Source of the DNA: a virus
Strand: one strand, 5' to 3'
IMG/VR virus record: IMGVR_UViG_3300028800_001035
Coordinates: 1-64,000 of that record
DNA: 64,000 bases
The notes beneath the pieces were generated by a model. The model did no database searches, had not been told where the DNA came from, and saw nothing but the letters and a program-made list of their open reading frames with translations. A program made the translations under genes and the position numbers. The first letter of the stretch is position 1; each line of letters starts with the position of its first letter. Below are positions 7,803-25,572 of the stretch, one piece after another.

Positions 7803-8488
7803 TGCCGCTCGAGGGAGGATCGTCGAAGACCGCGATCTCGCACAATATCGCGACCGAGCGCAACGCGGGCAAGCCGGAGAAGCAGGCTATCGCGATCGCC
7901 GAGAACAAGGCGCGCGGAGATTCCGAGCCTTCGAACGCGAAGGAATGGGAAGCTCTTATACGGCACGCCTATGAGCGGCAGGACGACAAGCTCGGCAAGC
8001 GTCTCGAGGCGAAATACAAAGAGTGGAAGGCGCGTAACGACTCTCTCGAGCCTTCCCCCTTCGGCCGTGAGGAGCGCGCCGCCAAGCTCTCGGAGGCGGG
8101 CGACGCCGCGTTCTTGATGGGCGCGATTGATGAGCTCAAGAGCCGGATCGACGCCGCGTCGACACCGAAGAAGCCTCCCGAAGGCGGCAAGTACGATCCG
8201 ATCGCCGTGAACAAAGAAATAAACAAGGACAAGCGAATCAAACCCGGCGAGGCGAAGTTAATCCACGCCGTGCTCAAGGGGCGCGGTGACGAGGACAAAG
8301 ACGCCCGCGCCGATTGGAACGCATACCCTTCCTATACGCTCGCCGAACTCAAGTCGATGGTCGCGAAGGCGACCGACCCCGCGAGTAAGGTGAAGATGCA
8401 GAAAGAAATAGAGGATCGCGAAGCAGGTCGGTCAGTTCATCGTCCGACGCCACAGGTCGACTGGAAAGACGTAAAGATTCGCCGATGA
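7802..8488 (+). CDS. hypothetical head-cluster protein with N-terminal basic-helix motif
   Basis: 228 residues. The N-terminus GGSSKTAISHNIATERNAGK followed by PEKQAIAIAENKARGD is a short motif I recognise from many phage proteins encoded near prohead proteases. The remainder is helical and strongly charged, with many Lys, Glu and Asp residues. It overlaps the protease-scaffold gene by 4 bases. A role in prohead assembly is possible from position alone. Confidence 0.6.
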   Translation: MPLEGGSSKTAISHNIATERNAGKPEKQAIAIAENKARGDSEPSNAKEWEALIRHAYERQDDKLGKRLEAKYKEWKARNDSLEPSPFGREERAAKLSEAGDAAFLMGAIDELKSRIDAASTPKKPPEGGKYDPIAVNKEINKDKRIKPGEAKLIHAVLKGRGDEDKDARADWNAYPSYTLAELKSMVAKATDPASKVKMQKEIEDREAGRSVHRPTPQVDWKDVKIRR

Positions 8489-10428: not shown

Positions 10429-11307
10429 ATGGCGACTCCCAACATTACCATCAATCCTGCCCAGACCTCGACCGCCCAAGGGACGTTCAACGTCTCCTCG
10501 AGCGGCCTGATCCAGGGCATGGCGTACCCCGACCCCGCGACGCGGTTCGCCCTCGTTCAGGGGCTCGTCTCGGCCTCCGAAACCATCCCGATGTGGGGCG
10601 GCGTCGCCGTCTTCGAAGACATCGCGACGCTCAACAACGGGACGAACCCGTCGTCGGTCCTCGGCTCGGCGATCGGCCGGGCGACGACCGTCACGGGCGG
10701 CTCGAAGCCGATCCTCGGCTTCTCCGTCTTCGACCAGGCCTACGGGATGATCAACAGCCCGCAGTCCCCGGTTCAGCTCGCGGCGGCGGGCGCGTCGGCG
10801 AACTACTACCGGCTCGGCTCGGGAGCCCGGATTGCGGTCGCCTGCGACCCGAACCTCGCGAGCCTTCGCGGCGGCCTCGTCAACGCGAGCGTCTCGTGGG
10901 ACTTCGTCAACGAGCAGCTGATCGCGTACTCCGCGCCGACCTTCTCGGCGGGGTCGTACAGCTCCGGCACCGGCCTCGTGACGATCACGACGACCGCTCC
11001 GCACGGCTTGCTCCCGGGTGATCAGATTATCACCTCGGGCGCGACCGGAACCGGCGCGGACCTCGCGCTCGTCAACGGGCAGTTCGCGCTCGCGGCGGGA
11101 ACGACCGGCTCGACGCTCGTCTACAGCGTCGGAACCGGCCACACCATCTCGTCGATCACGGGCCTTACGCTCGGGACCGGCGCGATCTTGACCTCGGTCA
11201 AGGTCCTCGAGATCGAAACCGGCAACTCGATGACGGTCTCGTACGACGCAACCTCGGGTTTCGCGACCTGGAACCGCAGCGGCTCCGCTGCCGTCATCCT
11301 GATCTAA
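10429..11307 (+). CDS. capsid-associated structural protein with HG-type beta module
   Basis: 292 residues between the scaffold and major capsid genes, the usual place of a decoration or stabilisation protein. Residues 1-175 are Gly/Ala/Ser rich with short beta stretches. Residues about 180-260 form a separate module beginning GLVTITTTAPHGLLPGDQI and ending SSITGLTL, the same HG-x4-G-D/Q module found in three tail proteins of this phage. Likely a virion surface or cement protein; inferred from position. Confidence 0.65.
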   Translation: MATPNITINPAQTSTAQGTFNVSSSGLIQGMAYPDPATRFALVQGLVSASETIPMWGGVAVFEDIATLNNGTNPSSVLGSAIGRATTVTGGSKPILGFSVFDQAYGMINSPQSPVQLAAAGASANYYRLGSGARIAVACDPNLASLRGGLVNASVSWDFVNEQLIAYSAPTFSAGSYSSGTGLVTITTTAPHGLLPGDQIITSGATGTGADLALVNGQFALAAGTTGSTLVYSVGTGHTISSITGLTLGTGAILTSVKVLEIETGNSMTVSYDATSGFATWNRSGSAAVILI

Positions 11308-11322
11308 GGAGGGTCAGAAACC

Positions 11323-12342
11323 ATGCTGAACGCTTCGTCCTACATCACCGTCAATCCCTCCTTCATGGAGCCCGAGATCATCCTGCCGTACTCGCAGGCC
11401 TCGGGCGCGTTCGACCTTATCGCCGACGGCGAGCCGCGAGTCCGGCTCTCCGAGGGCGACCTCTGGGTCTACATGAAGCGCCTCGACCTCCGCACGCGCA
11501 TGGCGGCCGGGCAGGCCTCCGGCAATCAGCTTCCCGGCGTCTCGATCGCCGCGTCGCAGATCAGCACGCCGACCTACCTTCAGCGCGTCCGGGCGACCTA
11601 CGACCATCACGACACCGCCGCCGCTGCTCGCTGGGGCTTCGGGCTTCCGGAGGCCTATCGCCTCGGGATGTTCCAGGGCCACTTCCAGCTCGCGCGCTCG
11701 GCCTTGCTCTACGGCTTCAACCCGGCGAACGGCGAAGGTCTCATTCACGCGAATGGTGCCACCGCCCTCAACCTGCCGGCCGACCAGTTCGGCAACACGA
11801 CCGTCCTGACCTACGACAACGGTCAGATGGCGTTCTTCTTGCTTCAGCAGATCGGCCTGATCAAGACGCGGACCAACCAAATGGGGATCGGGCGCAAGTT
11901 CACGATCCTCGGCCCGCAGCGGGTTCTCGAGACCTTCGAGTACCCGGGGATCGTTCAGCTCGTCCAGTACCAGCGCGTCGGCGCGGGCACGGCGACGACC
12001 GCGAACGTCGTCAAGGAGACTTGTATGTCGAACGGCGACCAGATCATCTGGGCGTACGACGACACCTTGATCGGCCAGGGCTCGGGCGGGACCGACGCCG
12101 TCATCATCTCGATGCCGGAAGTCGAGAAGCCGGAAAGCTCCCCCCTGAATACGAACGTCTTCGCGAACCTCGGCCCGGGCAATCCGGTCTGCGCGACGAT
12201 GTACGCGGATATGGCCGCGCCGCGCGAGATCACCTCGCCGATGGCGGGCGGGGCGACCGACGTCCTGACCGAATGGCGCGTTACTGCCGGCTGGGCCGTC
12301 CGCCCGGAGGCGATCACCATCATCTCGATGCAGTACCAGTAA
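11323..12342 (+). CDS. major capsid protein (DUF2184-like)
   Basis: 339 residues with GGAGG before ATG 11323. Position after scaffold, size and sequence (YMKRLDLRTRMAAGQASGNQ, ATYDHHDTAAAARWGF, GRKFTILGPQRVLETFEYPG, and a C-terminal domain ending WAVRPEAITIISMQYQ) fit the DUF2184 group of HK97-fold capsid proteins. No separate delta domain is visible, consistent with a separate scaffold. A strong terminator follows directly. Confidence 0.85.
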   Translation: MLNASSYITVNPSFMEPEIILPYSQASGAFDLIADGEPRVRLSEGDLWVYMKRLDLRTRMAAGQASGNQLPGVSIAASQISTPTYLQRVRATYDHHDTAAAARWGFGLPEAYRLGMFQGHFQLARSALLYGFNPANGEGLIHANGATALNLPADQFGNTTVLTYDNGQMAFFLLQQIGLIKTRTNQMGIGRKFTILGPQRVLETFEYPGIVQLVQYQRVGAGTATTANVVKETCMSNGDQIIWAYDDTLIGQGSGGTDAVIISMPEVEKPESSPLNTNVFANLGPGNPVCATMYADMAAPREITSPMAGGATDVLTEWRVTAGWAVRPEAITIISMQYQ

Positions 12343-12361
12343 ACCGGAAGACGTTTCCGTC

Positions 12362-12390
12362 AAAGAGCAACCCTCGCGGGTTGCTCTTTT
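12362..12390 (+). terminator. intrinsic terminator after the capsid gene
   Basis: A perfect 12-bp stem (AAAGAGCAACCC / GGGTTGCTCTTT) with loop TCGC, ending in TTTT, 20 bp after the capsid stop. It should end or attenuate transcripts, setting capsid mRNA above the downstream tail genes. Tail genes then need a further promoter or read-through, possibly aided by the NusG-like factor. Confidence 0.88.
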
Positions 12391-12431
12391 GGGAAGCGCC
12401 GTGAAGGGCCTTCGCAAGAAAGGGCAACAAG

Positions 12432-12941
12432 ATGAAGACGTACATCGCGAACTGCACTATGCAGAACCAGACGGCGAACTTTCGCCTCCCGGAATTTCCG
12501 AAGCCGCACTCGATCAAGGTCCCGATGGGACGGCAGGCGGAGGTCGGCGACTTGACGCCGCCGCAGCTCGACTCCTTCGTCGATCAGATGGGGCGCTACG
12601 GTATGGTTCACGTCAAGGAGGCGGGCAAGGCGACCGTCAAGATCGTATACCTCTATTCGACCGACGGCCCCGTCCCGCAGGAGGCGTTCCTCCGCGTCCT
12701 CGAGCGGAACAGGGGGCTCTTGCGGAACGAGGGCGTTCGCCGCCGCCAGGAGGCCGCCGTCGCGGCCAACGCGGCGATGAACACCGAGGACACGCCGGTC
12801 AAGAACCTCGAGATGTCGATTGAGGAAGAGACCTCCGGCTCGTTCGCGGGTCAGGACGACCCGATCGCCGAGGGCATCAAGATCGACAACGAGGCGGTCA
12901 CGAGCGAGAACAAGACACCGCGCCGACGCGGCAAGGGCTGA
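12432..12941 (+). CDS. hypothetical virion-operon protein (169 aa)
   Basis: Preceded by AAAGGGCAA and ATG 12432. The N-terminal part (MKTYIANCTMQNQTANFRLP ... PMGRQAEVGDLTPPQLDSFV) looks beta-rich; the middle has VYLYSTDGPVPQEAFLRVLE and the C-terminus is acidic then basic (PRRRGKG). Position after the capsid suggests a head-completion or neck role. No family recognised. Confidence 0.6.
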   Translation: MKTYIANCTMQNQTANFRLPEFPKPHSIKVPMGRQAEVGDLTPPQLDSFVDQMGRYGMVHVKEAGKATVKIVYLYSTDGPVPQEAFLRVLERNRGLLRNEGVRRRQEAAVAANAAMNTEDTPVKNLEMSIEEETSGSFAGQDDPIAEGIKIDNEAVTSENKTPRRRGKG

Positions 12942-12948
12942 ACGCCCG

Positions 12949-13461
12949 ATGAGCTGCGCGGCCCTCGCGATTCCTCCTCCGACCCAGGCGGGGTTCATCG
13001 ACTTCGCCCGGACGATTATGGGGATCACGGTCAAGCAGCTCCCGGACGCCTCGCCGTTCTTCACTTACGCGTTCTGCGTCTCCCTCGAGCTCGTCAACTG
13101 CGCGATCCGCGACGCTTCGCCGTTCATGTATCGGCTCGCGGTCTACAACCTCGCGGGTTCGAACCTCCTCAACTGGGCGCAGGACCCGGTCCCGGTCGAC
13201 CCCTACCCGCCGAACAACGACGAGTCGAAGGCGAACGGCGTCGGGTTCTTCGCCTATACCCGCGCGCAGTACAATATGCTCGGGTTCGTCTCCGGTATCA
13301 TCCAGGCCGCCGCCGACGAGACGACGTCCGAATCGCTCGTCGTCCCGGAGAGCTTCAAGAACTTTACGATCGCGAACCTTCAGCAGCTCAAGGACCCCTA
13401 CGGGCGGGCGTACCTCGGCATCGCGATGGACTACGGCCCGGCGGCCTGGGGCTTGACCTAG
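12949..13461 (+). CDS. putative head-tail adaptor or head completion protein (170 aa)
   Basis: ATG 12949, seven bases after the previous stop. The sequence includes FIDFARTIMGITVKQLPDAS, RLAVYNLAGSNLLNW and SGIIQAAADETTSESLVVPE, a helical pattern usual in adaptor proteins that bind below the portal. The next ATG abuts its stop. The call is from position and helical pattern only. Confidence 0.5.
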   Translation: MSCAALAIPPPTQAGFIDFARTIMGITVKQLPDASPFFTYAFCVSLELVNCAIRDASPFMYRLAVYNLAGSNLLNWAQDPVPVDPYPPNNDESKANGVGFFAYTRAQYNMLGFVSGIIQAAADETTSESLVVPESFKNFTIANLQQLKDPYGRAYLGIAMDYGPAAWGLT

Positions 13462-13974
13462 ATGCTCAAACTTCACATCGGCGTCTTCGACGTTCCCTAC
13501 GTCAAGCGCGAATCGCCGAAGAGGATGGCGGCGCGGATCGCGAAGAACGCGAAGAAGCCTCTCGCCAAGCCAAAGCACGCGAGCGCCGATAACAGGACGA
13601 CCGGCGACGTCGCGACGATCCTCGAGGCCAAGTACGGACTCTTCACAGCCTTCTTCGAGAACAAGGAGCTCGAGATCGCCGCCGCGCTCGAGGGCGGCCT
13701 CAAGGACTCGCTCGAGAGCCTCCTAACCGGAGCCCCGACGAGCCTCGACCCCTTCGGCGACGGGACGGCGAAGATCGACGAGATGTTCAAGGACTTCCTC
13801 TCGACCCGCGAGGCCGAGCGCGTCGGCATCCCGGGGACGCCGACCAAGGCCGCCCGGCGCGGCGTCAACCACAGATTCAAGCACCCGTACGCGAAGGACA
13901 ATCCGCGCCGCCCGTCGTTCATCGACACGGCCCTTATGCAGTCCTCCGAGAAGTCGTACGTCGAGGAAACCTAG
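13462..13974 (+). CDS. putative neck or tail-completion protein (170 aa)
   Basis: ATG directly follows the previous TAG. It is basic at the N-terminus (KRMAARIAKNAKKPLAKPKH), then helical, and ends with GVNHRFKHPYAKDNPRRPSF and a SFIDTALMQSSEKSY motif, reminiscent of the C-termini of tail-completion proteins that carry an 'R-P-SF' strand. Function assigned by order only. Confidence 0.5.
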   Translation: MLKLHIGVFDVPYVKRESPKRMAARIAKNAKKPLAKPKHASADNRTTGDVATILEAKYGLFTAFFENKELEIAAALEGGLKDSLESLLTGAPTSLDPFGDGTAKIDEMFKDFLSTREAERVGIPGTPTKAARRGVNHRFKHPYAKDNPRRPSFIDTALMQSSEKSYVEET

Positions 13975-14298
13975 ATGGCAGTCAAATCGACCGCGAGGGC
14001 CGCAGCGAAGGACCCAACGCGGCACTCTTTCGACATCCACGGCAACGGCTACGTCGACCACGGCGCGGAGCCGACCATCGCGCCCGGCGCGGCGGCGCTA
14101 CCGCCCGTCCGGCCCCCCGCCTTGGCGACTGAGGGCTCGTGTCACGTCCTCCTCGCGCCCGGCCCGAACGAAATCATCCTCCGCTGGGTCGGAGGCAATT
14201 GGCAGCATCCCTTCAACCCGGGCGCGGGCAACCGCCTCGCCTGGACGCCGAAGCACCTCGGCGACGCCGGATGGTCCTATCACGGCCTGGTGAACTAG
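13975..14298 (+). CDS. hypothetical protein (107 aa)
   Basis: Abuts the previous stop. An N-terminal region with basic and proline-rich stretches is followed by a compact part with VLLAPGPNEIILRWVGGNW and WTPKHLGDAGWSYHGLV, rich in Trp and Gly. No family recognised. Lies in the neck and tail-completion segment. Confidence 0.55.
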   Translation: MAVKSTARAAAKDPTRHSFDIHGNGYVDHGAEPTIAPGAAALPPVRPPALATEGSCHVLLAPGPNEIILRWVGGNWQHPFNPGAGNRLAWTPKHLGDAGWSYHGLVN

Positions 14299-14299
14299 C

Positions 14300-15391
14300 G
14301 TGACCGTCGCCGAGGCGCTCGGCGCGAAGACCCCGCTCGGGTCCGACCTCGCGGCTGGCGTCGACGCGATCAGCTCGAACCAGAAGGTCACGTTTACGAA
14401 GTACGTTCGCCTGGTCCTCCCGATCGACGGCTCGATCTTCTGGGTTCGCGCGACGATCATCTCCGACGGCGCGCTCCTCAACGCCGCCGTCCTCAACTCG
14501 GCGGCGCTCAACGAGCTCCCGCTCGTCTCGATCCCGGCCGCGACGATAACGGTCAAGGGCTCGCTCCACTACGCGACGGAGAACCGGCAGCAACAGGAAG
14601 CGAACTACGCGGTCAACCGCGTCGTCTTCACGGCGGAGTCGCCGGTCAACGACCTCAACGCGGTCGGCCCGTCGACGATGTACATCGGTGAGTTTCAGGG
14701 GCAGCGGTTCGCGTTCTCCTCGCGCCGGTCCTTCTACAAGCAGGCGGACCTCTATCACTACGCGGGCGACGCGATCTACCCGCCGATGCTCTCTCAAATC
14801 ATCGACGACGCGGTACAACTAGCGAACCGGGGGCAGGTCGTCTCCAACTCGCTCCCGATCTGGCTCTCGATCGCCGACTACTTCGCGCCGACCTTCGGCG
14901 GCATCGGCTTGAGCTTCGTCATCGGCGAGAGCGCGATCGGCGGCGGCTACTGGCCCTGGAAGGTTCCCTTCGCGCCGATCCCGGCGCTCTTCCCGTCCTA
15001 CCTCGCCGACGACAACCTCGCGCCGCCGTTCGCGACGATACACATACCGCCGGAGTCGACCCAGGCGCTCGCCTCGGCACCGTTCCTCGGGCGGCGGCTC
15101 TCGCACCACCAGCTCGCGAAGGATAAGGTCAAGGTCACGTTCTACGGCCTCCGCAACGAGGACGCGCTCGGCTTCATCGACACGGTCAACCAGTTCTCGC
15201 TCGACACCGACCGCCTCGGGATTATGAACATCCCGACGGTCCGGGACGAGAAGCAGACGCAGGCCGAGATGAACATAATCGCGATGAAGAAGACGGTCGA
15301 ATACGAAGTTTCCTATCACCAAAACCAGGCGCGGGACGTGGCGCGTCAATTGATCTTGTCCGCGATCCCAACCTTCATATTTCCCACCTAG
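14300..15391 (+). CDS. tail-operon structural protein with LN-triad motif (363 aa)
   Basis: GTG start. Near residues 55-75 it carries ALLNAAVLNSAALNEL, a stepwise (A/L)LN repeat seen twice more in the protein at 24757. The rest contains VKGSLHYATENRQQQEANYA, GQRFAFSSRRSFYKQADLYH and repeated aromatic beta segments. It lies before the sheath gene where tail terminator or connector proteins usually sit. No firm family call. Confidence 0.55.
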   Translation: MTVAEALGAKTPLGSDLAAGVDAISSNQKVTFTKYVRLVLPIDGSIFWVRATIISDGALLNAAVLNSAALNELPLVSIPAATITVKGSLHYATENRQQQEANYAVNRVVFTAESPVNDLNAVGPSTMYIGEFQGQRFAFSSRRSFYKQADLYHYAGDAIYPPMLSQIIDDAVQLANRGQVVSNSLPIWLSIADYFAPTFGGIGLSFVIGESAIGGGYWPWKVPFAPIPALFPSYLADDNLAPPFATIHIPPESTQALASAPFLGRRLSHHQLAKDKVKVTFYGLRNEDALGFIDTVNQFSLDTDRLGIMNIPTVRDEKQTQAEMNIIAMKKTVEYEVSYHQNQARDVARQLILSAIPTFIFPT

Positions 15392-15403
15392 GAGAACGAC
15401 CAA

Positions 15404-15784
15404 ATGCCGCAAGCCCCCCTGAACGCCTTCGTCGCGAAGAACCCCTCGAACGTCCTCGTCGCGCTCAAGGTCGACGCGAACGGCGACCTGATCGTCAGCT
15501 CCGCCGGGACGCCCGGCAACTCTTCGAAGAACTACGCCGCGAATACGGCGGGCGACCAGGCCAAGCTCGGCGCGGGCATCCTTCGCGGCTTGACCGTCAA
15601 CACTGCCGGCCTGACCTCGACCGCGACGCTCTATGACGGGACGTCGACCTCCGGCACGAAGCTCGGGACCTTCTCGACCCTCGCGCAAAACAGCTTGCAG
15701 GACCTCAACCTCGCCTTCGCGACCGGGCTCTTCGTCGTCCTCGCAGGTGGGACCCCGGCGGACGTCACGGTCTCCTGGTCCTAA
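15404..15784 (+). CDS. small beta-rich virion protein, paralogue of 7095-7427
   Basis: 126 residues. Its C-terminal 75 residues (GILRGLTVNTAGLTSTATLY, TKLGTFSTLAQ, GLFVVLAGGTPADVTVSW) match the protein at 7095 in order and spacing. The N-terminal 50 residues (FVAKNPSNVLVALKVDANGD) are additional. A duplicated small domain that now serves head and tail regions is the likely explanation. Confidence 0.65.
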   Translation: MPQAPLNAFVAKNPSNVLVALKVDANGDLIVSSAGTPGNSSKNYAANTAGDQAKLGAGILRGLTVNTAGLTSTATLYDGTSTSGTKLGTFSTLAQNSLQDLNLAFATGLFVVLAGGTPADVTVSWS

Positions 15785-15820
15785 ATCGGCGCGGCCTCCA
15801 ACCTTTAGGGGAACCCCCGA

Positions 15821-17203
15821 ATGGTCAACAACATTGTTACCGTCAACGTCTCGCAGACGATCGCGCCGACGCCGAGCACGCTCCAGAAGACCGGGGCGTT
15901 CATTTCCCAGGGGGCGACGACGCTCGGCGCGGGCAAGACCGCGCTGATCACGCAGCTCTCGGACCTAACGTCAATCCTTCAGGGCGCGTTCGCCCTCGCC
16001 TCCCTAACCTGGTCCGGCGGCGTCGTCACGGGGACGACCGCCGCGCCGCACGGCTTCGCGAACGGGCAGCAGATACAGCTGACGATCTCCGGCGCGGTCC
16101 CCTCGGGCTATAACGGGACCTACATCTGCACGATCACGGGCGCGTCGCTCTTCACGTACGCGCACGCGGGAACCCTGACGACCCCGGCCGGAACGCCGGG
16201 CGTCTACACCGAGGAAGACGTCGCCGAGCTCCTCGCGATGGGGACGACCTTCTTCGCGCAGGGCGCGGCGCAGGCCGTCTACGTCCTCGAGCTCGGTCAA
16301 GGCGACGCCGCGACCGGCGTCACCGCGCTCTCGGCGTACATAACGGCGAACCCGAACGCGTTCTATTCCTACCTCGTCCCCCGCAACTGGGCGAGCGAGA
16401 CGACCTACTGGGCCTTCGTCGCGAACTTCGAGAACCCGACCGCGAAGACCTACTTCTTCACGACGATGTCGCTCGCGAACTACACGAACTTCACGCCGCA
16501 GATGAAGTCCGTCTTCGGCCTCGTCGAGGCCCCGGTCATCCCGGTCACGGAGTTCTCGCTCGCGGCGGTCTTCTACCGGACGCTCAACTACGACCCGTCG
16601 ACGACGAACAAGGTCGCGCCGACCGCGTTCGCCTTCCTCTTCGGCGTTACGCCGTACCCTCTCCCGGGTAACAGCGCGCAACTCTCGACGCTCAAGTCCG
16701 CCTTCGTCAACTACGTCGGAACCGGAGCCGAGGGCGGGATCTCGACCGCCGTCCTCTTCTGGGGGACGACGATGGACGGGAACGACTTCACGTACTGGTA
16801 CTCGGTCGACTGGGTCCAGATCAACATCGACCTCGACATCTCGAACGCGATCATCGACGGCTCGAACAACCCGATCAACCCCCTGTACTACAATCAGAAC
16901 GGCATCGACCGGCTCCAGGGGGTAGCCGCGTCGACGATGTCGAGCGGCGTCACGTTCGGCCTCGTCCTCGGGAACGTCGTTCAGACCGCGCTCGACGGCC
17001 CGGCCTTGACCGACGCGCTCGCGCGGAAGCAGTTCGAGGGGCAGACGGTCGTCAACGCCGTCCCGTTCATCCCGTACTCGGAAGAGAACCCGGGCGACTA
17101 CAAGATCGGCAAGTACAGCGGCTTCTCGATCTCGTACACCCCGGCGCGAGGGTTCCTCTCGATCATCTTCAACGTCAACGTTTCCCAATTCGTAGCGGCT
17201 TGA
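15821..17203 (+). CDS. tail sheath protein (DUF3383-like)
   Basis: 460 residues. The N-terminal VNNIVTVNVSQTIAPTPSTL, the AVYVLELGQGDAATGVTALSAY segment, FYSYLVPRNWASETTYWAFV and a C-terminal YTPARGFLSIIFNVNVSQF match the DUF3383 sheath family of contractile phages. Residues about 62-128 are an inserted HG module (GGVVTGTTAAPHGFANGQQI) between strands, probably a surface knob. Next to the tube gene as expected. This protein makes the tail contractile. Confidence 0.85.
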   Translation: MVNNIVTVNVSQTIAPTPSTLQKTGAFISQGATTLGAGKTALITQLSDLTSILQGAFALASLTWSGGVVTGTTAAPHGFANGQQIQLTISGAVPSGYNGTYICTITGASLFTYAHAGTLTTPAGTPGVYTEEDVAELLAMGTTFFAQGAAQAVYVLELGQGDAATGVTALSAYITANPNAFYSYLVPRNWASETTYWAFVANFENPTAKTYFFTTMSLANYTNFTPQMKSVFGLVEAPVIPVTEFSLAAVFYRTLNYDPSTTNKVAPTAFAFLFGVTPYPLPGNSAQLSTLKSAFVNYVGTGAEGGISTAVLFWGTTMDGNDFTYWYSVDWVQINIDLDISNAIIDGSNNPINPLYYNQNGIDRLQGVAASTMSSGVTFGLVLGNVVQTALDGPALTDALARKQFEGQTVVNAVPFIPYSEENPGDYKIGKYSGFSISYTPARGFLSIIFNVNVSQFVAA

Positions 17204-17211
17204 GGTAAAAG

Positions 17212-17652
17212 ATGGCCAACCCCCAAGTCCCCCAGGGCTCACTCAACCGGCTGCGGGCCTCGATCGTCATCCCGCAGTTCCCGCAACTCAACGTCACGGC
17301 CGCGTTCCTCGGAGAAGAGGCGATCCGCCTCGCCTTCGAGGGCGACTCGACGACGTTCATCAACACGCTGACCGGCGCGGTCACGTCGCCGGAGCCGTAC
17401 ATCGCCGCGTCGCTGACGATCTCGCTCCTCAAGACGCAGAACCTCGCGAACGCCTACAAGGCGCAGATGGAGCAGAGCGCGCTCCTCGGCGACCTGACCG
17501 TCCGCCCGGACTCCGCGATCCTCAACCCCTACCTCCTCGAGAACTGCGCGATCGAGAACGTCCAGGAGCTCAACTTCTCCGGACGGGACGCAGCCTACCG
17601 CGTCATGATCAAGGGCTTCTATATCGTCAACAACGTCCTCTGGAACGGGTGA
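17212..17652 (+). CDS. tail tube protein (DUF3277-like)
   Basis: 146 residues directly after the sheath. GSLNRLRASIVIPQFPQLNV, FEGDSTTFINTLTGAVTSPEPY, TISLLKTQNLANAYKAQMEQ and YRVMIKGFYIVNNVLW fit small tube proteins of contractile phages. It would stack in hexamers to form the inner tube. Confidence 0.8.
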   Translation: MANPQVPQGSLNRLRASIVIPQFPQLNVTAAFLGEEAIRLAFEGDSTTFINTLTGAVTSPEPYIAASLTISLLKTQNLANAYKAQMEQSALLGDLTVRPDSAILNPYLLENCAIENVQELNFSGRDAAYRVMIKGFYIVNNVLWNG

Positions 17653-17687
17653 TCCGCGCCTAGGGCACATCCCGAAGGGCAAATCGG

Positions 17688-18236
17688 ATGCGCATCGACA
17701 AGAAACTGAACCTCGTAATACCCGTCGAGTACGACGACCGGACGCTCTACGTCCACTCCGCCCCGATCTCGAGCGAGGCTTTCGAGGCGAACTATATGAT
17801 CCTCGCGAAGACGTTCTCGAAAATCTACACGGCGGGCCTCAACTGGCAGATCGGTCCCCGGATCGCCGCCCTCGCCCTCAAGGAGGTCGCGGAGGAAGAC
17901 GGGAACTGGGACGCCGTTCAGGCCTCTCTCGTCAACGACATCGAGCGCCTGACGAACGTCGCCGTCCCCGGCGCGAACGGATGGGAGGTCATTCCCTACG
18001 TCGAGGCGCGGTCGAAGGGTATCATCGACGCCGACGACGCGCGGGAGGTCGAGAACGCGATAACTTTTTTTATTGTAGACTACGCGATCCACGGCCGCCG
18101 GGACGGGGAGAAAGTCATCAAGGAGGCGGCGAGGCTCTGGGGCGGGCAGACTACGTCGTCGAACTGTACGGAGTTCGCCGCTTCCTTGCCGACGTCGACC
18201 GGGGCCGCGAGTTCTGGCGAGAAGGCGGCGTCGTAG
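17688..18236 (+). CDS. tail assembly chaperone, short form
   Basis: 182 residues, preceded by GAAGGGCAA. Helical core (FEANYMILAKTFSKIYTAGL, LALKEVAEEDGNWDAVQASL) with a Ser/Thr/Ala-rich C-terminus (SLPTSTGAASSGEKAAS). It occupies the slot between tube and tape measure where tail chaperones lie; these bind and fold the tape measure. A slippery heptamer at codons 127-128 allows a longer -1 frame product. Confidence 0.75.
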   Translation: MRIDKKLNLVIPVEYDDRTLYVHSAPISSEAFEANYMILAKTFSKIYTAGLNWQIGPRIAALALKEVAEEDGNWDAVQASLVNDIERLTNVAVPGANGWEVIPYVEARSKGIIDADDAREVENAITFFIVDYAIHGRRDGEKVIKEAARLWGGQTTSSNCTEFAASLPTSTGAASSGEKAAS

Positions 18237-18373
18237 GCGACGTTCTCGACTGGGCGTCCGGCGAGGGCTCCGACGAGTTCTTCTCCCGCGACGGCGAAGA
18301 GCAATTCGACGCCTCCCGCTTCCGCAACCGTCACGTCGTCAACGCGATCCTCTCGCTCAAGAAGGGCAAGTGA
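17688..18373 (+). CDS. tail assembly chaperone, -1 frameshift form (about 228 aa)
   Basis: Reading shifts back one base at 18065-18071, so codons 1-128 of the short form continue in frame from 18071 to TGA 18371-18373. The -1 frame has no ATG, GTG or TTG after the slip, so it needs the shift for expression. Downstream it reads GRADYVVELYGVRRFLADVD and FDASRFRNRHVVNAILSLKK, a coding-like sequence, and its TGA abuts the tape measure ATG. This mirrors lambda G/GT. The junction is inferred; the first 20 residues after the slip look low-complexity. Confidence 0.65.
18065..18071 (+). promoter_or_regulatory. slippery heptamer for -1 frameshift
   Basis: T TTT TTT with codon boundaries exactly in the X-XXY-YYZ register (zero-frame codons 18066-18068 and 18069-18071 both TTT). 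It is a rare AT-rich run (AACTTTTTTTATTGTAG) in a GC-rich gene, which argues for selection. A stimulating downstream stem was not worked out. Confidence 0.7.
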
Positions 18374-20152
18374 ATGGCCGTCAAGAGCGTTATAGAAGTC
18401 GAGGTCGACGACGGCGCGTTCAAGACGTTCAAGGCGCTCTTCGACAAATTCAAGGAGCAGGCCGCCGAGATCCCGGAGGTCTGGGCTCAAGTCGGCAAGG
18501 AGACCAAGGGCTCCGCCGGTAACTTCGCCGATATGACCGCCGCGCTTATGGCGCAGGCGCATTTGATGGACGCGCTCGAGAAGAAGCGCCGGGCCGCCGA
18601 CCGGGCCGTCGACAAGGAAACGACGAGCTGGAAGCGCATCTCGACCTACTCGAAAGAGGTCGCGGGCAACATCGGCAAGGCGACGGTCGCGCTTCTCAAG
18701 TGGGGAGCCTTGACCGGCGTCGTCTCCGGCCTCCTAGGCGGGGGCGGCCTCTACGGGATAGACCGCCTAGCCCTCGGCGTCGGGGCCGGTAGGCGCTCGT
18801 CCCTGGGACTAGGGATCGGCTACGGCGAGCAGAAGTCCTTCGAGACCAACTTCGGCCGGATCGTCGACCCGAACTCCTTCCTTTCCGGGGTCAACGAATC
18901 CCTTCACGACGTTACCAAGCGCTGGATGCTCCAGGCGGCGGGCGTCAAGGCTTCGACGATCGCGGGCGGCGACACCGGGGCGGTCGGGGTCGAACTCCTC
19001 AACTCCGTCAAGACCCTCGTCGACCGGACCCCGGCGAACCAGCTTCAGCAGCTCTCGGATTCCCGGGGGCTCGGTCAGTTTTATTCCCTCCAGGACCTCG
19101 TCCGGCTCAAAGCCACCTCTCGCGAGGAGCTCGCGACGCAGGGCGCAGCGTTCCGACGCGACGCGGGCTCGTTCGGTCTCGACGACCGGACGCAGCGCCG
19201 CTTTCAGGACTTCGCGACCCAGCTCTCCCGGGCCGGTCGCAAGATCGAGACGGTCTTCGTCGAAGGCCTCTCCCCCCTGGTCCCGTCCCTCTCCAAATTG
19301 TCAGAATCCGTCGCCGACGCGCTCGGCTCGTTCCTCAAGAGCATCAAGCCGTCCGACGTCGACGCGATCGGAAAAGACATAACCGACTTCGCGAAGTACC
19401 TCGGCTCGCCCGAGTTCAAGAAGAACCTTCACGACTTCGGCGCGGACGTCGGAAGCCTCGCGCACGCGATCGCCGACGCGCTCCACGCGCTCGGCAAGCA
19501 CTCCGTCCAGGACGCCGCGTTCGGCGCGGCGGCGGGTTTCGTCGTAGGCGGCGTACCCGGCGCGGTCGTTGGCGGCCTCGTTGGCGGCGCAGTCGGCGCT
19601 GGTCGCGATGGCGTAACGGTCTCGCACGTCGAAGGCGGCAAGACGATCGTCGATAGACCCGACCTCGTCGGGAAGGGCTTCGTCGACGACGGCAAGTTTC
19701 ACGTCCTTCATCCCGAGACCTGGGGTCGCGGCTGGACCCGGCCGAACGATACCAACCCCGGCAACATCGAGAAACTCGACGGGACGGGCTATCGGACTTT
19801 CGCCAATCCTGGTGAGGGCGTTCGCGCGGTCGCGGATCAGCTCAAGCGGTACGAATACTCGAACAAGTGGGGGCACCTCGATACGATCGCGAAGATCATC
19901 GCGACCTACGCTCCCGCCAAGGCCGGAAACAACGTCGGCGCGTACATCAAGGACGTCGTCGGGCAGACGGGGTACAAGGCCGATCAGCATCTAGAACTTT
20001 CCGACAATAGGGTCCTCGCGAAGCTGACGTCGGCGATCCTCCGCCACGAGAACATCAAGAAAAATTCGGGCTACACGCCGGAGAAGACCTTGCAGATCAT
20101 CAACAATACGGGCGGCAACGCGATGGTCGTCGCCTCGCAGGCCGCTAGGTGA
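18374..20152 (+). CDS. tail tape measure protein with muramidase-like C-terminal domain
   Basis: 592 residues starting right after the frameshift product. Residues 1-110 are helical; about 110-145 form a glycine-rich hydrophobic segment (TGVVSGLLGGGGLYG), and another lies near 375-415 (AAGFVVGGVPGAVVGGLVGG). Residues about 455-560 match a lysozyme-like domain of phage structural muramidases: NPGNI, YRTFANPGEGVRAVADQL, then AKIIATYAPAKAGNNVGAYI. This part could cut peptidoglycan when the tail pierces the wall. It is short for a tape measure, suggesting a short tail if length scales as usual. Confidence 0.75.
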   Translation: MAVKSVIEVEVDDGAFKTFKALFDKFKEQAAEIPEVWAQVGKETKGSAGNFADMTAALMAQAHLMDALEKKRRAADRAVDKETTSWKRISTYSKEVAGNIGKATVALLKWGALTGVVSGLLGGGGLYGIDRLALGVGAGRRSSLGLGIGYGEQKSFETNFGRIVDPNSFLSGVNESLHDVTKRWMLQAAGVKASTIAGGDTGAVGVELLNSVKTLVDRTPANQLQQLSDSRGLGQFYSLQDLVRLKATSREELATQGAAFRRDAGSFGLDDRTQRRFQDFATQLSRAGRKIETVFVEGLSPLVPSLSKLSESVADALGSFLKSIKPSDVDAIGKDITDFAKYLGSPEFKKNLHDFGADVGSLAHAIADALHALGKHSVQDAAFGAAAGFVVGGVPGAVVGGLVGGAVGAGRDGVTVSHVEGGKTIVDRPDLVGKGFVDDGKFHVLHPETWGRGWTRPNDTNPGNIEKLDGTGYRTFANPGEGVRAVADQLKRYEYSNKWGHLDTIAKIIATYAPAKAGNNVGAYIKDVVGQTGYKADQHLELSDNRVLAKLTSAILRHENIKKNSGYTPEKTLQIINNTGGNAMVVASQAAR

Positions 20153-20820
20153 GCGGCGCGGGCCGTGCCCAGTTCGACCTCTCCTTCCAGATCAGCCCGA
20201 TCATCTTGGTCGGGGGGATCGCGGCGGGACAGACCGGCGGAATGTCAATCTCCGATCTCCTCGGGGAATCGGACTCGGACGAGCCGTTCGCCAAGTTCAT
20301 ACCGCTCAACGGCGGGACGATCATCGACCAGGCGGTCGCGACCTTCCCGTTCGCGAACCAAACGGTCGCAGCCAACGCGGTCATAGCAAACCCGAACGTC
20401 GTCTCCCTCAAGATGATCGTTCCGGCGGTGGACGGCTTCAGCTACGGGCAGAAACTGCAAGTCATAACGGCGCTACAATCCTCGCTCGCGAAGCACAACG
20501 CGCAGGGTGGAACCTACACCGTCGCGACGCCCTCCTTCTACTACGACAACTGCCTCTTGACCGCCCTCCGCGACATCTCCGGCGGCGAGTCGAAGCAGGC
20601 GCAGATCGAGTGGCAATTCGACTTCTTCCAGCCGCTGATCACGCTCGCGGCCGCAGCCGCCGCGCAGAGCACGCTTATGAGCAAGGTTTCCAACGCGACG
20701 CCGGTCGACGGCGATCCGCCCGCGTGGTCCGGCCTCTCGACGACCTCCGGCTCGCCGCCGGGCGTCGGATCGACCGGATCGACCCCGTCCGCCGCGCCGC
20801 CCGTCGGGAGCCCGCCGTGA
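20149..20820 (+). CDS. baseplate or tail-tip structural protein (223 aa)
   Basis: GTG 20149 overlaps the tape measure stop. It has ISPIILVGGIAAGQTGGMSI near the start, LNGGTIIDQAVATFPFANQT, and QIEWQFDFFQPLITL, then a Pro/Ser/Gly-rich tail. It lies where contractile phages encode tube-baseplate connectors. No firm family. Confidence 0.55.
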   Translation: MSGAGRAQFDLSFQISPIILVGGIAAGQTGGMSISDLLGESDSDEPFAKFIPLNGGTIIDQAVATFPFANQTVAANAVIANPNVVSLKMIVPAVDGFSYGQKLQVITALQSSLAKHNAQGGTYTVATPSFYYDNCLLTALRDISGGESKQAQIEWQFDFFQPLITLAAAAAAQSTLMSKVSNATPVDGDPPAWSGLSTTSGSPPGVGSTGSTPSAAPPVGSPP

Positions 20821-21305
20821 CGACGTATTTCGAGTTCGCGCCGACCAACACGGCGGCGTTTCAATTTCAACCGACGTTCGACGGCGTGGTCTACAACGTC
20901 GCCGTCCCATGGCTCCTCTTCGGCCGCCGCTACTACGTCGCCTGCTACGCGCTCGACGGGACCCTCCAGTTCCTCTTGCCGCTGATCGGCTCGCCGACGG
21001 GGTTCGAGATACAGGCGATCGAGTGGGAGCGCGGCAACGCGATCGTCACGACGGTCGAACCGCACGGCTTCAAGATCGGATCGACGACCGAGGTGACGAT
21101 CTCCGGCGTCGCCCCGGCCGCGTACGACGGCAAATTCAAGGCCCTCGCGGTCGACCCCGTCACCCTCTCCTACCCCCTGGCCGCCAACCCCGGCCAGGCG
21201 ACGGCGCTCGGAAGCGCGAACCGCGATATAAGCATGACGGCGGGGTACTTCAATTCGACCCTCGTCTATCGTGCCGCGAACAAGACCTTCGAGGTCTCGC
21301 CCTAG
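20817..21305 (+). CDS. baseplate plug-like protein (DUF6983-like) with HG module
   Basis: 162 residues, GTG overlapping the previous stop. The host domain has FQPTFDGVVYNVAVPWLLFG, RRYYVACYALDGTLQFLLPL, then TAGYFNSTLVYRAANKTFEV at the end, the split pattern of small DUF6983-type baseplate proteins. Residues about 65-135 are an inserted module (AIVTTVEPHGFKIGSTTEVT, SGVAPAAYDGKF) of the HG type shared with the sheath. Family call tentative. Confidence 0.6.
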   Translation: MTTYFEFAPTNTAAFQFQPTFDGVVYNVAVPWLLFGRRYYVACYALDGTLQFLLPLIGSPTGFEIQAIEWERGNAIVTTVEPHGFKIGSTTEVTISGVAPAAYDGKFKALAVDPVTLSYPLAANPGQATALGSANRDISMTAGYFNSTLVYRAANKTFEVSP

Positions 21306-22297
21306 TGCGGTATTACAAGATCGTTCTCAAGAACGCGACGAGCGGCGAAGTCATCCGGCCCGCCTCGATGACGAACCTCGACGCCGATTCGAGCTACGCG
21401 AGCTACGCGGGCGGCGCGACCCTTCCGGGCGCGCTCAACGTCGAGCTCGACCTCCCGGTCTCGTCCTTCGCAACGCCAGCCGGAGCGGCCTACGTTAAGA
21501 TCTGGGGCGTCTCCCTCGCGGAGATCGCCCAGTCGAACGACCTCGCCGGTTGCAAGATCGAAGTCTACGGCGGAATGCAGAAAGGCCTTCCGCTCGCCAA
21601 GCCAGCGCAGGCGGGGCTCTTGGTTCAGGGGGTGGTTTCGCAGGCCTTCGGCAACTGGGTCGGGACCGAGATGTCCCTCGACCTGATCGTCGTAGCCGAC
21701 GCCGGGACGAGCGAAGCGCCGAAGAACATCGTCCTCGACTGGAAGAAAGGCGCGACCCTCTCGGACGCGCTTTCCTCGACCTTGACGAACGCGTTCCCGG
21801 GATCGACGGCGAAGATCAACATCGACCCCGGCCTCGTCGCGACGCAGGATCAGCAGGGGTTCTACGCGACGATGACGCAGCTAAACTCCTACCTCGTCTC
21901 GGCGAGCAAGGGGATTATAAAGCGCGACGGCTACATCGGGGTTCAAGTCGCGCAGCTCGGCAACGCCTTCAACGTCTACGACGGGACGACGAAGTCGACG
22001 CCGAAGGAGATCGCGTTCGAGGACCTACTCGGGCAGCCGACGTGGATCGGACCTAGCGTCGTTCAATTCAAGACGGTTATGCGGGCGGACGTCGTCCTCG
22101 ACGACTACGTCAAGCTCCCCGCGCCTCAGGTCTCCGCGACGGCGGCGGGAACGCCGCCGTTCGGGAGCGGGATCAAGCAGAAGAGCGCGTTCCAGGGTTC
22201 GTTTCAGATCATAGACGTGCATAGCTACGGAAGCTTCCGGCAGCCCGACGCCTACGCTTGGAATACGACGTTCAACGCGGTCCCGGAGCTGCAATGA
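21305..22297 (+). CDS. baseplate hub protein (putative)
   Basis: 330 residues, GTG start. LPGALNVELDLPVSSFATPA, VKIWGVSLAEIAQSNDLAGC, then GCKIEVYGGMQKGLP and a later IDVHSYGSFRQPDAYAWNTTF fit hub proteins of the gp44/gp27 type that sit on the tube and carry the spike. The following gene encodes the spike, as expected. Its stop overlaps the spike ATG. Confidence 0.65.
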   Translation: MRYYKIVLKNATSGEVIRPASMTNLDADSSYASYAGGATLPGALNVELDLPVSSFATPAGAAYVKIWGVSLAEIAQSNDLAGCKIEVYGGMQKGLPLAKPAQAGLLVQGVVSQAFGNWVGTEMSLDLIVVADAGTSEAPKNIVLDWKKGATLSDALSSTLTNAFPGSTAKINIDPGLVATQDQQGFYATMTQLNSYLVSASKGIIKRDGYIGVQVAQLGNAFNVYDGTTKSTPKEIAFEDLLGQPTWIGPSVVQFKTVMRADVVLDDYVKLPAPQVSATAAGTPPFGSGIKQKSAFQGSFQIIDVHSYGSFRQPDAYAWNTTFNAVPELQ

Positions 22298-22989
22298 GCT
22301 TCAACGCGCAGAAGACGCCGGGCGGGAAGAGCCTCAACGAGCTGACCCGGATGCGGACCGGCGACGCGCGGCAGGTCGTCGGGCAGCGCCTGCCGTGCTC
22401 CGTTACCGCCGTCGACGGCGCGATGGTCACCGTCAAGTTCGAGATCGCGACGGAGGACTTTACGCTCCCGAGCGTGACGGTCCCGATCGCCAACTCGATA
22501 TACGTCCGCGAGCCGACGCAGGTCAGCGACAAGGGCTATGTTCAGGCCGCCGACGCGCGCCTCGGCGGCGTCGCCGGGCTCTTCGAAGGCTCGGCCGACC
22601 TCTCGACGCCTTCGAACCTCGGCGCACTCGTCTTCGTCCCAATCGGCAACGCAACTTGGGAACCTGTCCCCGACCCCGACAAGCTGACGCTCCAGGGGCC
22701 GAAGGGCTTCTACCTCCGCGACCTCCCGGAGTCCGGCGGCGACGAGACCTTCTCAATCGTCGGCGACAAGGACTCTGGGACGATCACGATAAAGGTCGGA
22801 AACGACGTCTCGGCCGTTCTCAGCGCGACGGAGATTCTCTTCAAGGTCAAGACGAACGCAACAATCAAGATGATAGACGGCGAGATCGACATCGACGCGA
22901 CGACGGTCAAGATCAACGGGCACGATTTCAATACGCACGAGCACTCGGGGGTTCAGACCGGAGGCGGAAACACGGGAGGCGTCGTTTGA
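22294..22989 (+). CDS. baseplate spike protein (gp138 / gpV-like)
   Basis: 231 residues. Residues about 25-140 look like an OB-fold region (LPCSVTAVDGAMVTVKFEIA, VREPTQVSDKGYVQAAD). Residues about 150-215 form a regular beta-helix repeat (GTITIKVGNDVSAVLSATEI, IKMIDGEIDIDATTVKINGH). The end DFNTHEHSGVQTGGGNTGG has H-x-H, the pattern that binds metal at spike tips. It would puncture the outer membrane. Confidence 0.8.
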   Translation: MSFNAQKTPGGKSLNELTRMRTGDARQVVGQRLPCSVTAVDGAMVTVKFEIATEDFTLPSVTVPIANSIYVREPTQVSDKGYVQAADARLGGVAGLFEGSADLSTPSNLGALVFVPIGNATWEPVPDPDKLTLQGPKGFYLRDLPESGGDETFSIVGDKDSGTITIKVGNDVSAVLSATEILFKVKTNATIKMIDGEIDIDATTVKINGHDFNTHEHSGVQTGGGNTGGVV

Positions 22990-23333
22990 GGACTTACGGA
23001 CGCGCCGTCGACCCGAACACCGGCAAGTTCGGCTGGATGATTGTCGAGACGGCGGCGGACGGGTCGAACGACTACGTCTACCTGACGACGCTCTGCCAGG
23101 TCCTCCTTCTCAACCTCAACGAGTCGCCGTTCTTCGCCAACTATGGTATCCCGGCGCACCAATCCGTCGCGCAGCAGATCGCGCCCGACTTCTACGTCGC
23201 CGCGACGCAGCGGCAATTCGCGGGCTTCTTCGCGAGCCTCGTCATCAACAAGATCAAGGCGATCCCGCCGACCTATGCGGTCCGGGTCATCACCAACCAG
23301 GGCGTTAAGATGGAAGCGACGGTGGCAATTTGA
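22986..23333 (+). CDS. baseplate wedge protein, gp25-like
   Basis: 115 residues, TTG overlapping the spike stop. YLTTLCQVLLLNLNESPFFA, NYGIPAHQSVAQQIAPDFYV and a C-terminal VRVITNQGVKMEATVAI match the short gp25/W-type wedge proteins that start sheath assembly. Located between spike and J-like genes as in many contractile phages. Confidence 0.7.
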   Translation: MRTYGRAVDPNTGKFGWMIVETAADGSNDYVYLTTLCQVLLLNLNESPFFANYGIPAHQSVAQQIAPDFYVAATQRQFAGFFASLVINKIKAIPPTYAVRVITNQGVKMEATVAI

Positions 23334-24760
23334 GCACGGGACTGCCGCTCGTCATGACCGCCGCCGGTCCGCAGCCGACCGCGCCCGCGACGCTCCGCGC
23401 GGAACTCCTCGCGTCGGTCGCGGCGACCAACCCGGGCTACACGGCGAACCTGCCCGCCTCGCTGATCGAGGACGTCGCGAGCACGGACGTCGGCGCGCTC
23501 GTAATCGCCGACACGGCCCGCGTCGAAACCGTCAACTCCCTGACGCCCTACGGCGCGAACCCCTTCCTGCTCAACCAGCTCGGGCAGGTCTACGGCGTCC
23601 CGATCGGCGAGCCGACGAGTACGTCGGTCTTCCTCGTCTTCTCCGGCCCGGCGGGCTTCGTCATCGGGAAGGGCTTCCTCGTCTCGGACGGGACGCACCA
23701 GTACGCGGCGGCCGACGGCGGCGTCATCGACGGAACGCTTCAGTCGACCCCCCTGTTCTTCGTCGCGACCTCGCAGGGATCTTGGCCGGTCCCGGCCAAC
23801 TCCGTGACGACGTTGATCACGTCGATCCCGACTTCGGTTAGCACCATTACCGCGACGAACCCACTCCCGGGCGTTCCCGGCATCGCGACCGGCGAGACCG
23901 AGGAGTCCTACCGGGCGCGCGTCCTTCAGGCCGGGCTCGCGGCGAGCCAGGGGATGACGCGCTACCTCAAGACGCTCCTCGGGCAAGTCTCGGGAACGCA
24001 GACGCGCTTGATCTCGGTGCGGCAAATCGTCGGCGCGGGATGGGAAGTCATCTGCGGCGGCGGCGATCCCTACGAGGTCGCGTTCGCGATCTTCCAGGCG
24101 CTCTTCGACATCAACACGCTCGTCGGCTCGACGATAAAGATCACCGGGATTACGAACGCGACGCTCGGCGTCGTCACGACGGACCTCAACCACGGGCTCG
24201 TGACGGGGCAGAACAACGTTCACATCGCCGGGGTCGTCGGAATGACCGGCGCGAACGGAGGCCCGTATACCGTAACCGTTCTGACAGAGAAGACTTTCAC
24301 GTTCGGGGTCAACACGAGCGGCTTCGGGGCCTACGTCTCCGGCGGCGTCGTTACGCCGAACGCGCGGAACGTCGTCGTCGACGTTGACGATTATCCCGAT
24401 ACGTATGCGATCCCGTTCGTCAACCCGCCGCAGCAGTCCGTGACGATGAACGTTACGTGGAACACCAACGCGACAAACTTCGTTAGCGCGGCGGCGGTCG
24501 CGCAGCTCGCGATCCCGGCGCTGACGGACTACGTCAACTCGATCGGCGTCGGCCAGCCGATCAACCTCCTCGAGATGACGACGATCTTTCAGGCGGCGAT
24601 AACGCCGGTTTTGATTCCGGACCTCCTCGTCCGCCTCGTCTTCTCCGTCAACATCAACGGCGTGACGACCGCTCCCCCGGCTGGCGAGAGCGTCATCAAC
24701 GGCGACCCGGAGTCCTATTTCTTCGCCGCGCAGTCCGGAATAGTGGTCGTTCAGGGATGA
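23330..24760 (+). CDS. baseplate J-like protein with HG module insertion
   Basis: 476 residues, TTG start. ATNPGYTANLPASLIEDVAS, FLLNQLGQVYGVPIGEPTST, NPLPGVPGIATGETEESYRA-type segments and the long hydrophobic C-terminus are typical of J-like wedge proteins. Residues about 276-343 are an insertion (LNHGLVTGQNNVHIAGVVGM, FTFGVNTSGFGAYVSGG), the longest match to the FCCH-like HG module in this window. The insertion is likely a surface-exposed beta knob. Confidence 0.78.
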   Translation: MSTGLPLVMTAAGPQPTAPATLRAELLASVAATNPGYTANLPASLIEDVASTDVGALVIADTARVETVNSLTPYGANPFLLNQLGQVYGVPIGEPTSTSVFLVFSGPAGFVIGKGFLVSDGTHQYAAADGGVIDGTLQSTPLFFVATSQGSWPVPANSVTTLITSIPTSVSTITATNPLPGVPGIATGETEESYRARVLQAGLAASQGMTRYLKTLLGQVSGTQTRLISVRQIVGAGWEVICGGGDPYEVAFAIFQALFDINTLVGSTIKITGITNATLGVVTTDLNHGLVTGQNNVHIAGVVGMTGANGGPYTVTVLTEKTFTFGVNTSGFGAYVSGGVVTPNARNVVVDVDDYPDTYAIPFVNPPQQSVTMNVTWNTNATNFVSAAAVAQLAIPALTDYVNSIGVGQPINLLEMTTIFQAAITPVLIPDLLVRLVFSVNINGVTTAPPAGESVINGDPESYFFAAQSGIVVVQG

Positions 24761-25572
24761 TCCCGTCTTCCGCGATCGGCTCCTTCGTCATCGGACGTTC
24801 CCCGATCGGGGCGTTCGTTCCGCCGCCGCCGCCGGTTCCGTTTCCGCCGCCGGGTCCGACGACGGTCACGAAGGTCATACCGGCCTACCTCTATCAAGAG
24901 TACAACGACGACGACGACCTTCAGGGGTTCTTCGCGGCGCAGAACGCGCTAGCGCAGGACATCGTCGGCTGGTTCGCGACGATCGGCCTCCCGGTCTACA
25001 CCGGGGAGCAGGTCTCCAACCTCCTCCTCGACTGGGTCATCGCCGGACTCTACGGGATCGAAGGCCGACCGGCCCTCCCGTCGGGGACGAACCAAGACGT
25101 CGGCCCGCTAAACACGTGGGCGCTCAACACCCTCGCGCTCAACGCCTACGAGATCATCGGGAACCAAAACTTCTACGCGACGACGGACGACATCTTCCGC
25201 CGCATCTTGACCTGGCACTTCTACAAGGGCGACGGGAAGGTCTTCACGATACGCTGGCTCAAGCGCCGCATCATGCGGTTCTTGACCGGCGTCGACGGGA
25301 CGGCTGGAGAGACCGACGAGACCTACCCGATCTCGGTCTCGTTCGGCGCGGGGAACCAGGTCAACATCGGGGTTGCGAACGGGACGCGGACGATCACGAC
25401 GAGCGCCCTCCTCAACACGTTCGCGCTCAATACGGTCGCCCTCAACGAGCTCGACTCGACCTTCGTCCCGGAGCCGCCGTTTCCGCTCGCGCCGATCCTC
25501 AAGGCGGGGATCGACTCGGGCGTTCTCGAGCTACCTTTTCAGTTCACATACGTCGTGACGATCACGACCTAG
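24757..25572 (+). CDS. baseplate protein with two LN-triad motifs (271 aa)
   Basis: ATG overlaps the previous stop. A proline-rich start (PPPPPVPFPPPGP) is followed by AYLYQEYNDDDDLQGFFAAQ and LLDWVIAGLYGIEGRPALPS, then GPLNTWALNTLALNAYEI and later LLNTFALNTVALNEL. Position after the J-like gene suggests the gpI slot that joins fibres to the baseplate. The LN triads match one in the protein at 14300. Confidence 0.6.
   Translation: MIPSSAIGSFVIGRSPIGAFVPPPPPVPFPPPGPTTVTKVIPAYLYQEYNDDDDLQGFFAAQNALAQDIVGWFATIGLPVYTGEQVSNLLLDWVIAGLYGIEGRPALPSGTNQDVGPLNTWALNTLALNAYEIIGNQNFYATTDDIFRRILTWHFYKGDGKVFTIRWLKRRIMRFLTGVDGTAGETDETYPISVSFGAGNQVNIGVANGTRTITTSALLNTFALNTVALNELDSTFVPEPPFPLAPILKAGIDSGVLELPFQFTYVVTITT

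Follow-up and report, generated by a model that had tools for sequence, protein, structure and literature searches.

The virion block and its module-bearing genes

The window, that is, the whole stretch of 64,000 nucleotides analysed here, is part of a 72,463-base virus record and carries, from ~8.5 to 26.7 kb, the virion block of a contractile-tailed phage, in which the sheath, the baseplate hub and the baseplate wedge/J were assigned via PHROGs. The order of the virion genes is common to the window, Pantoea phage PdC23, Klebsiella phage Chronis and Yersinia phage 29.18, and also to Actinobacillus phage pPE4, Escherichia phage Rac-SA53 and Shewanella phage QDWS. Four of the virion proteins contain, once each and in frame, a beta module of ~65-80 residues with the pattern VTxTTxxxHGxxxG...ISG...YNGxY...TFTY...G. 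The initial annotation had located such a module in these same proteins, at coordinates that differ from those given below by a few residues at most.

10429..11307, + strand: capsid-side host gene (phrog_6268), between a NUDIX/maturation-protease-like gene and the putative major capsid protein
10942..11184, + strand: capsid-side module, residues ~172-252 of gene 10429-11307; the most divergent of the four
15821..17203, + strand: tail sheath host gene (phrog_205 tail sheath, 2.6e-36; Foldseek matches to solved sheaths)
15989..16213, + strand: sheath module, residues ~57-131 of gene 15821-17203
20817..21305, + strand: plug-like host gene with a phrog_8737 core, preceding the baseplate hub
21009..21218, + strand: plug-like module, residues ~65-134 of gene 20817-21305
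23330..24760, + strand: baseplate J / wedge host gene (phrog_6 baseplate wedge subunit, 1.5e-21)
24137..24361, + strand: J-like module, residues ~270-345 of gene 23330-24760
24757..25572, + strand: fifth host protein (phrog_8212), module-free; empty site between residues 139 and 140, ~nt 25173/25174

The plug-like gene has a GTG start and overlaps the stop of the upstream gene, and the PHROG core match of its product stops at residue 66, the module beginning at ~65. A profile of this protein (A4) weakly matched the spacer protein gp019 of PDB 9ndy (E 9e-4); the J-like protein profile matched the baseplate J of 9g8s, and one relative of the capsid-side protein gave a weak Phage_cement_2 match. 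In the product of gene 8485-10425, a NUDIX-like domain at the N terminus is fused to a region resembling head maturation proteases and to a stretch rich in Lys, Glu, Asp and Ala. A short LN-xxx-LN repeat (LLNAAVLNSAALN; PLNTWALNTLALN; LLNTFALNTVALN) is found in two unlike virion proteins of the window, those of genes 14300-15391 (columns 74-95 of alignment A1) and 24757-25572. It occurs 7 times among the 7,108 ORFs surveyed, 3 of these in orthologues of gene 14300, and is mostly absent from most orthologues of that gene. The same gene 14300-15391 has ~30 additional residues at ~203-235 (around GLSFVIGESAIGGGYWPWKVPFAPIP), which the aligned orthologues lack except for parts in locus L009.

Homology and fold of the module

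Pairwise BLASTP among the window copies gave a strong match between the sheath and plug modules (E 6e-9) and a weak one between the sheath and capsid-side modules (7e-4), and the pairs with J were not significant on their own. These J pairs, together with the low-complexity composition, would suit an explanation in which Thr/Gly/Val-rich beta segments merely align by chance. A profile search that left out one host family at a time nevertheless recovered the modules of the sheath (2.7e-15), capsid-side (3.3e-21), plug (2.1e-20) and J proteins (1.3e-21, a value stemming from J proteins that bear sheath-type modules). The search without J seeds missed the J copy of the window itself, whose capsid-side copy reached only 4e-3 with the capsid-side family left out of the seeds. 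Both gaps were closed by profile-profile comparison of the four pure module groups with hhalign (E-values there refer to a database of one profile), in which all six pairs matched at 95.6-99.9% probability: 99.85% for plug against sheath, 96.9% for sheath-J, 95.6% for capsid-J, 96.6% for plug-J and 98-99.9% for the pairs without J. Column-shuffled controls, 60 for each of four pairs, reached a maximum of 8.1%, as against 96-99% for the real profiles. The shuffled profiles, the leave-one-out values and the independent fold matches described below refute chance likeness, which is rated as extremely improbable, and the profile alignments confirm that the four window segments are homologous copies of one module.

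In the AF2 model of the sheath (mean pLDDT 88.5), residues 57-131 form a unit of five to six strands (block pLDDT ~84-93), located at 57-65, 68-73, 84-90, 99-107, 110-114 and 128-131. The capsid-side model (mean pLDDT 86.7) has a similar unit with strands from 172-178 to 247-250 (block pLDDT ~79-95). In both models, which cover the two copies that were modelled, the module is a confidently predicted separate barrel.

The resemblance to FCCH domains, first proposed from the sequence, holds up in several copies. The window J copy matched Pfam E1_FCCH (PF16190) with 43.5 bits against a gathering cut-off of 29.5; the sheath model was matched by Foldseek to the mouse E1 FCCH domain 2v31 (prob 0.97, TM by target 0.47, E 0.07) and the capsid-side model to UBA1 (prob 1.00, rmsd 3.0-3.2). 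The capsid-side model likewise matched the phi92 endosialidase (prob 1.00, rmsd 3.3 for chain A, 28% identity), and further matches to K1F endosialidase and many E1 enzymes had prob 0.8-1.0 and rmsd 3.0-4.9, all with E >0.001. Fibres, baseplate wedges, J-like proteins and endosialidases are among the best matches in predicted viral structures. By sequence, the J profile reached UBA6 (E 0.005) and the capsid-side profile A3 reached the phi92 structure 4hiz (E 0.009; 0.16 with the wider alignment A7). Hence the same two families, FCCH and the endosialidase barrel, were reached independently by sequence profiles and by Foldseek.

The J copy therefore shares its sequence family with the FCCH domain of ubiquitin E1 (mouse 2v31, human UBA1/UBA6), and the sheath and capsid-side copies share its fold; that domain is also inserted in a larger protein. 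The phage module differs in having neither the E1 adenylation domain nor a ubiquitin context, and the window sheath and capsid-side copies, as well as the plug module searched alone, gave no E1_FCCH match in Pfam; 8/42 diverse modules match at E<=0.1. The endosialidase beta-barrel (PF12195; phi92 4hiz, K1F 1v0e/3gvj), whose fold the capsid-side copy matched with prob 0.98-1.00, is similarly part of virion proteins, but the phage module comes without the catalytic propeller. Sequence matches to PF12195 were weak in relatives (E 0.006-0.009), and there were none in the window proteins. An Ig-like beta-sandwich was unsupported: the best solved-structure matches, including the top ones of the capsid-side model, are FCCH and endosialidase barrels, and Ig matches are isolated and weak, in relatives. 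In a tblastn search of the phage collection, the J module matched 22 records, among them baseplate wedges of Rhizobium phages and a protein of a Vibrio phage that is annotated as FCCH; a single sheath-type module sequence found no match there. A sequence search of solved sheaths, run to place the sheath insertion, gave no matches, and a literature search on FCCH domains in phages returned nothing relevant.

Insertion sites, inheritance and movement between genes

Two scans of viral contigs supplied 155 further loci, some of them overlapping contigs or near-copies, and the census covered 7,108 ORFs in 164 sequences (the window and 163 related loci). It contained 307 modules: 133 in sheaths, 78 in J proteins, 70 in capsid-side proteins, 24 in plug proteins and 2 in other ORFs. 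Across the related loci the module is thus almost confined to four virion protein families, being present in 119/120 sheaths, 68/85 J, 70/109 capsid-side and 24/98 plug proteins. For example, Pantoea phage PdC23 and Klebsiella phage Chronis both have it in the capsid-side, sheath and J proteins. The two remaining ORFs (L035 and L036, ~19449-19640) are orthologues of window gene 24757-25572, and their module is inserted at the exact point that corresponds to the junction of residues 139 and 140 in its product.

With the modules cut out and their positions then mapped, each family proved to have a preferred site: profile position 55-59 in the sheath (119/133 modules), 162 in the capsid-side protein (70/70), 64 in the plug (24/24) and 263-265 in J (76/78). 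A second sheath site, at 165-169, is used in 11 sheaths, and tandem duplication of the module occurs in this phage group. Comparison of presence and absence at the same points in relatives gave clean empty sites: the capsid-side site is empty in L006-L009, the sheath site in L008, the plug site in L003-L008 (the window having a clean insertion) and the J site in L006, L007 and L009, and the alignment of module-free orthologues is continuous across the insertion site. The empty sites of these relatives show that the capsid-side and J cores are able to work with no module. The sheath of L008 (Shewanella phage QDWS), which lacks the module, bears a repeat-like insert of another kind (VVTNGGSGYTSAPTVTF...) elsewhere, at A2 columns ~220-300.

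A tree of 206 non-redundant modules (70 columns, weakly resolved, mostly with SH-aLRT 80-95) sorts by host protein, with 12 label changes where the minimum is 4 and the shuffled mean 95.7. The closest relatives of the window copies are the orthologous copies in other phages, which rules out recent copying within the window genome. There are exceptions to this sorting. The J proteins of L162, L038, L147, L160 and L054 carry a J-type module first and then sheath-type ones, which are 58-75% identical to sheath modules and <=47% to J-type modules; in L162 the first of them is 75% identical to a sheath module in protein and ~72% in DNA. Likewise, L022 and L101 have, at the usual site of the capsid-side protein, modules of the sheath type (marginally so by identity in L101). 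The modules at the second sheath site, like the extra modules found in L083, L096 and L103, are closest to capsid-side modules. The plug modules, except one, form a single clade (support 95) inside the sheath-type half of the tree. Nearly all transferred modules that were examined resemble modules of other genomes more closely than those of their own genome, the exception being L103, whose extra sheath module best matches its own capsid-side copy. As the tree types follow the host protein with exceptions, the insertions are old and have been passed on mainly by descent, copying from one gene to another having happened repeatedly. Spread of a mobile domain by recombination, as initially proposed, therefore stands as far as copying between proteins goes, but it has been rare; the tree and the identities confirm that mobility between virion genes is real but slow.

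Patchy presence is what would be expected if the modules were tolerated, near-neutral insertions without any selected role that had spread through chance recombination. Indeed, among the 87 loci with all four genes (not de-duplicated), the module is present in 86 sheaths, 68 J, 49 capsid-side and 17 plug proteins. Long-term retention at fixed sites, the vertical clustering in the tree and the conservation of fold residues across divergent phages argue against this explanation and render it improbable.

Possible functions of the barrel

One domain in several unlike virion proteins, patchy in occurrence and transferred between them, was found here, as is the case for phage Ig-like accessory domains, which are likewise swapped between unlike structural proteins and located on sheath, head and tail (PMC9230969); their fold family differs from that of the module. 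The best reading of the module is that of an accessory domain used like those Ig-like domains. One small barrel of the FCCH/endosialidase fold would be inserted at one permissive site of each virion protein as an accessory to the core fold, and would face outward at least on the sheath and the head. The outward position is suggested by analogy with domain I of T4 gp18, likened to the module by description: this six-stranded barrel, too, is an insertion, lies in the N-terminal half of a sheath and protrudes outward (PMC3004832). The barrels would then make weak, many-copy contacts with cell-surface glycans, as has been suggested for the Ig-like domains of other phages, and would be kept through ordinary inheritance, occasional recombination copying a barrel into another virion gene. 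Taken as a whole, this reading has about an even chance of being correct.

Glycan contact is brought in on two grounds: the barrel of K1F endosialidase has a sialic-acid binding site that influences host discrimination (PMC12632334), and a role in adhesion or stability has been proposed for additional sheath domains (PMC9230969). By analogy, weak glycan contact by the modules is probable and adhesion to the host surface plausible. The fold by itself does not give this function, since glycan binding is not known for the FCCH domains of E1 enzymes.

The modules might instead serve as docking or stiffening elements within the virion, holding fibres, neighbouring subunits or the baseplate and not the host. 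There are precedents: T4 gp18 domain I contacts the baseplate and the retracted long tail fibres, host binding not being described for it (PMC3004832), and in the A-1(L) wedge an inserted domain secures the long tail fibre (PMC10966104). The conservation of the copies differs. Measured as identity to the window, conservation in J is higher for the module than for the core (0.57 vs 0.50), while in the sheath (0.47 vs 0.54) and the capsid-side protein (0.33 vs 0.47) it is lower. The higher conservation of the J module is more in keeping with a structural contact than with a variable adhesin, and the contrast with the capsid-side and sheath modules argues, at the level of sequence identity, against a uniform role for all modules. 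The near-universal sheath module (119/120 sheaths) could also be structural. Against docking stand the clean loss of modules in relatives whose genes are otherwise intact, the poor conservation of the capsid-side module, and its replacement by a module of another type in L022 and L101, which would be odd for a tailored interface. As an account of all copies docking seems rather doubtful, and at least for J it remains a serious rival to the accessory-domain reading. The core of the plug protein may lie inside the particle; that its module is exposed is a supposition.

A more far-reaching form of the accessory-domain reading is that one non-Ig barrel family coats the head, sheath and baseplate as a virion-wide, many-copy glycan-binding layer, with copies shuffled between structural genes. 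This is put forward tentatively, being possible and on the unlikely side; if true, the binding range could change without altering the tail fibres. Domains common to unlike virion proteins are known mainly with Ig-like folds. The module adds a second such fold, kin to a domain of ubiquitin enzymes and to a sugar-binding spike domain. The fixed sites, empty sites, tandem duplication and gene-to-gene transfer within one phage group make the accessory-adhesin idea testable with natural pairs of proteins that have and lack the module.
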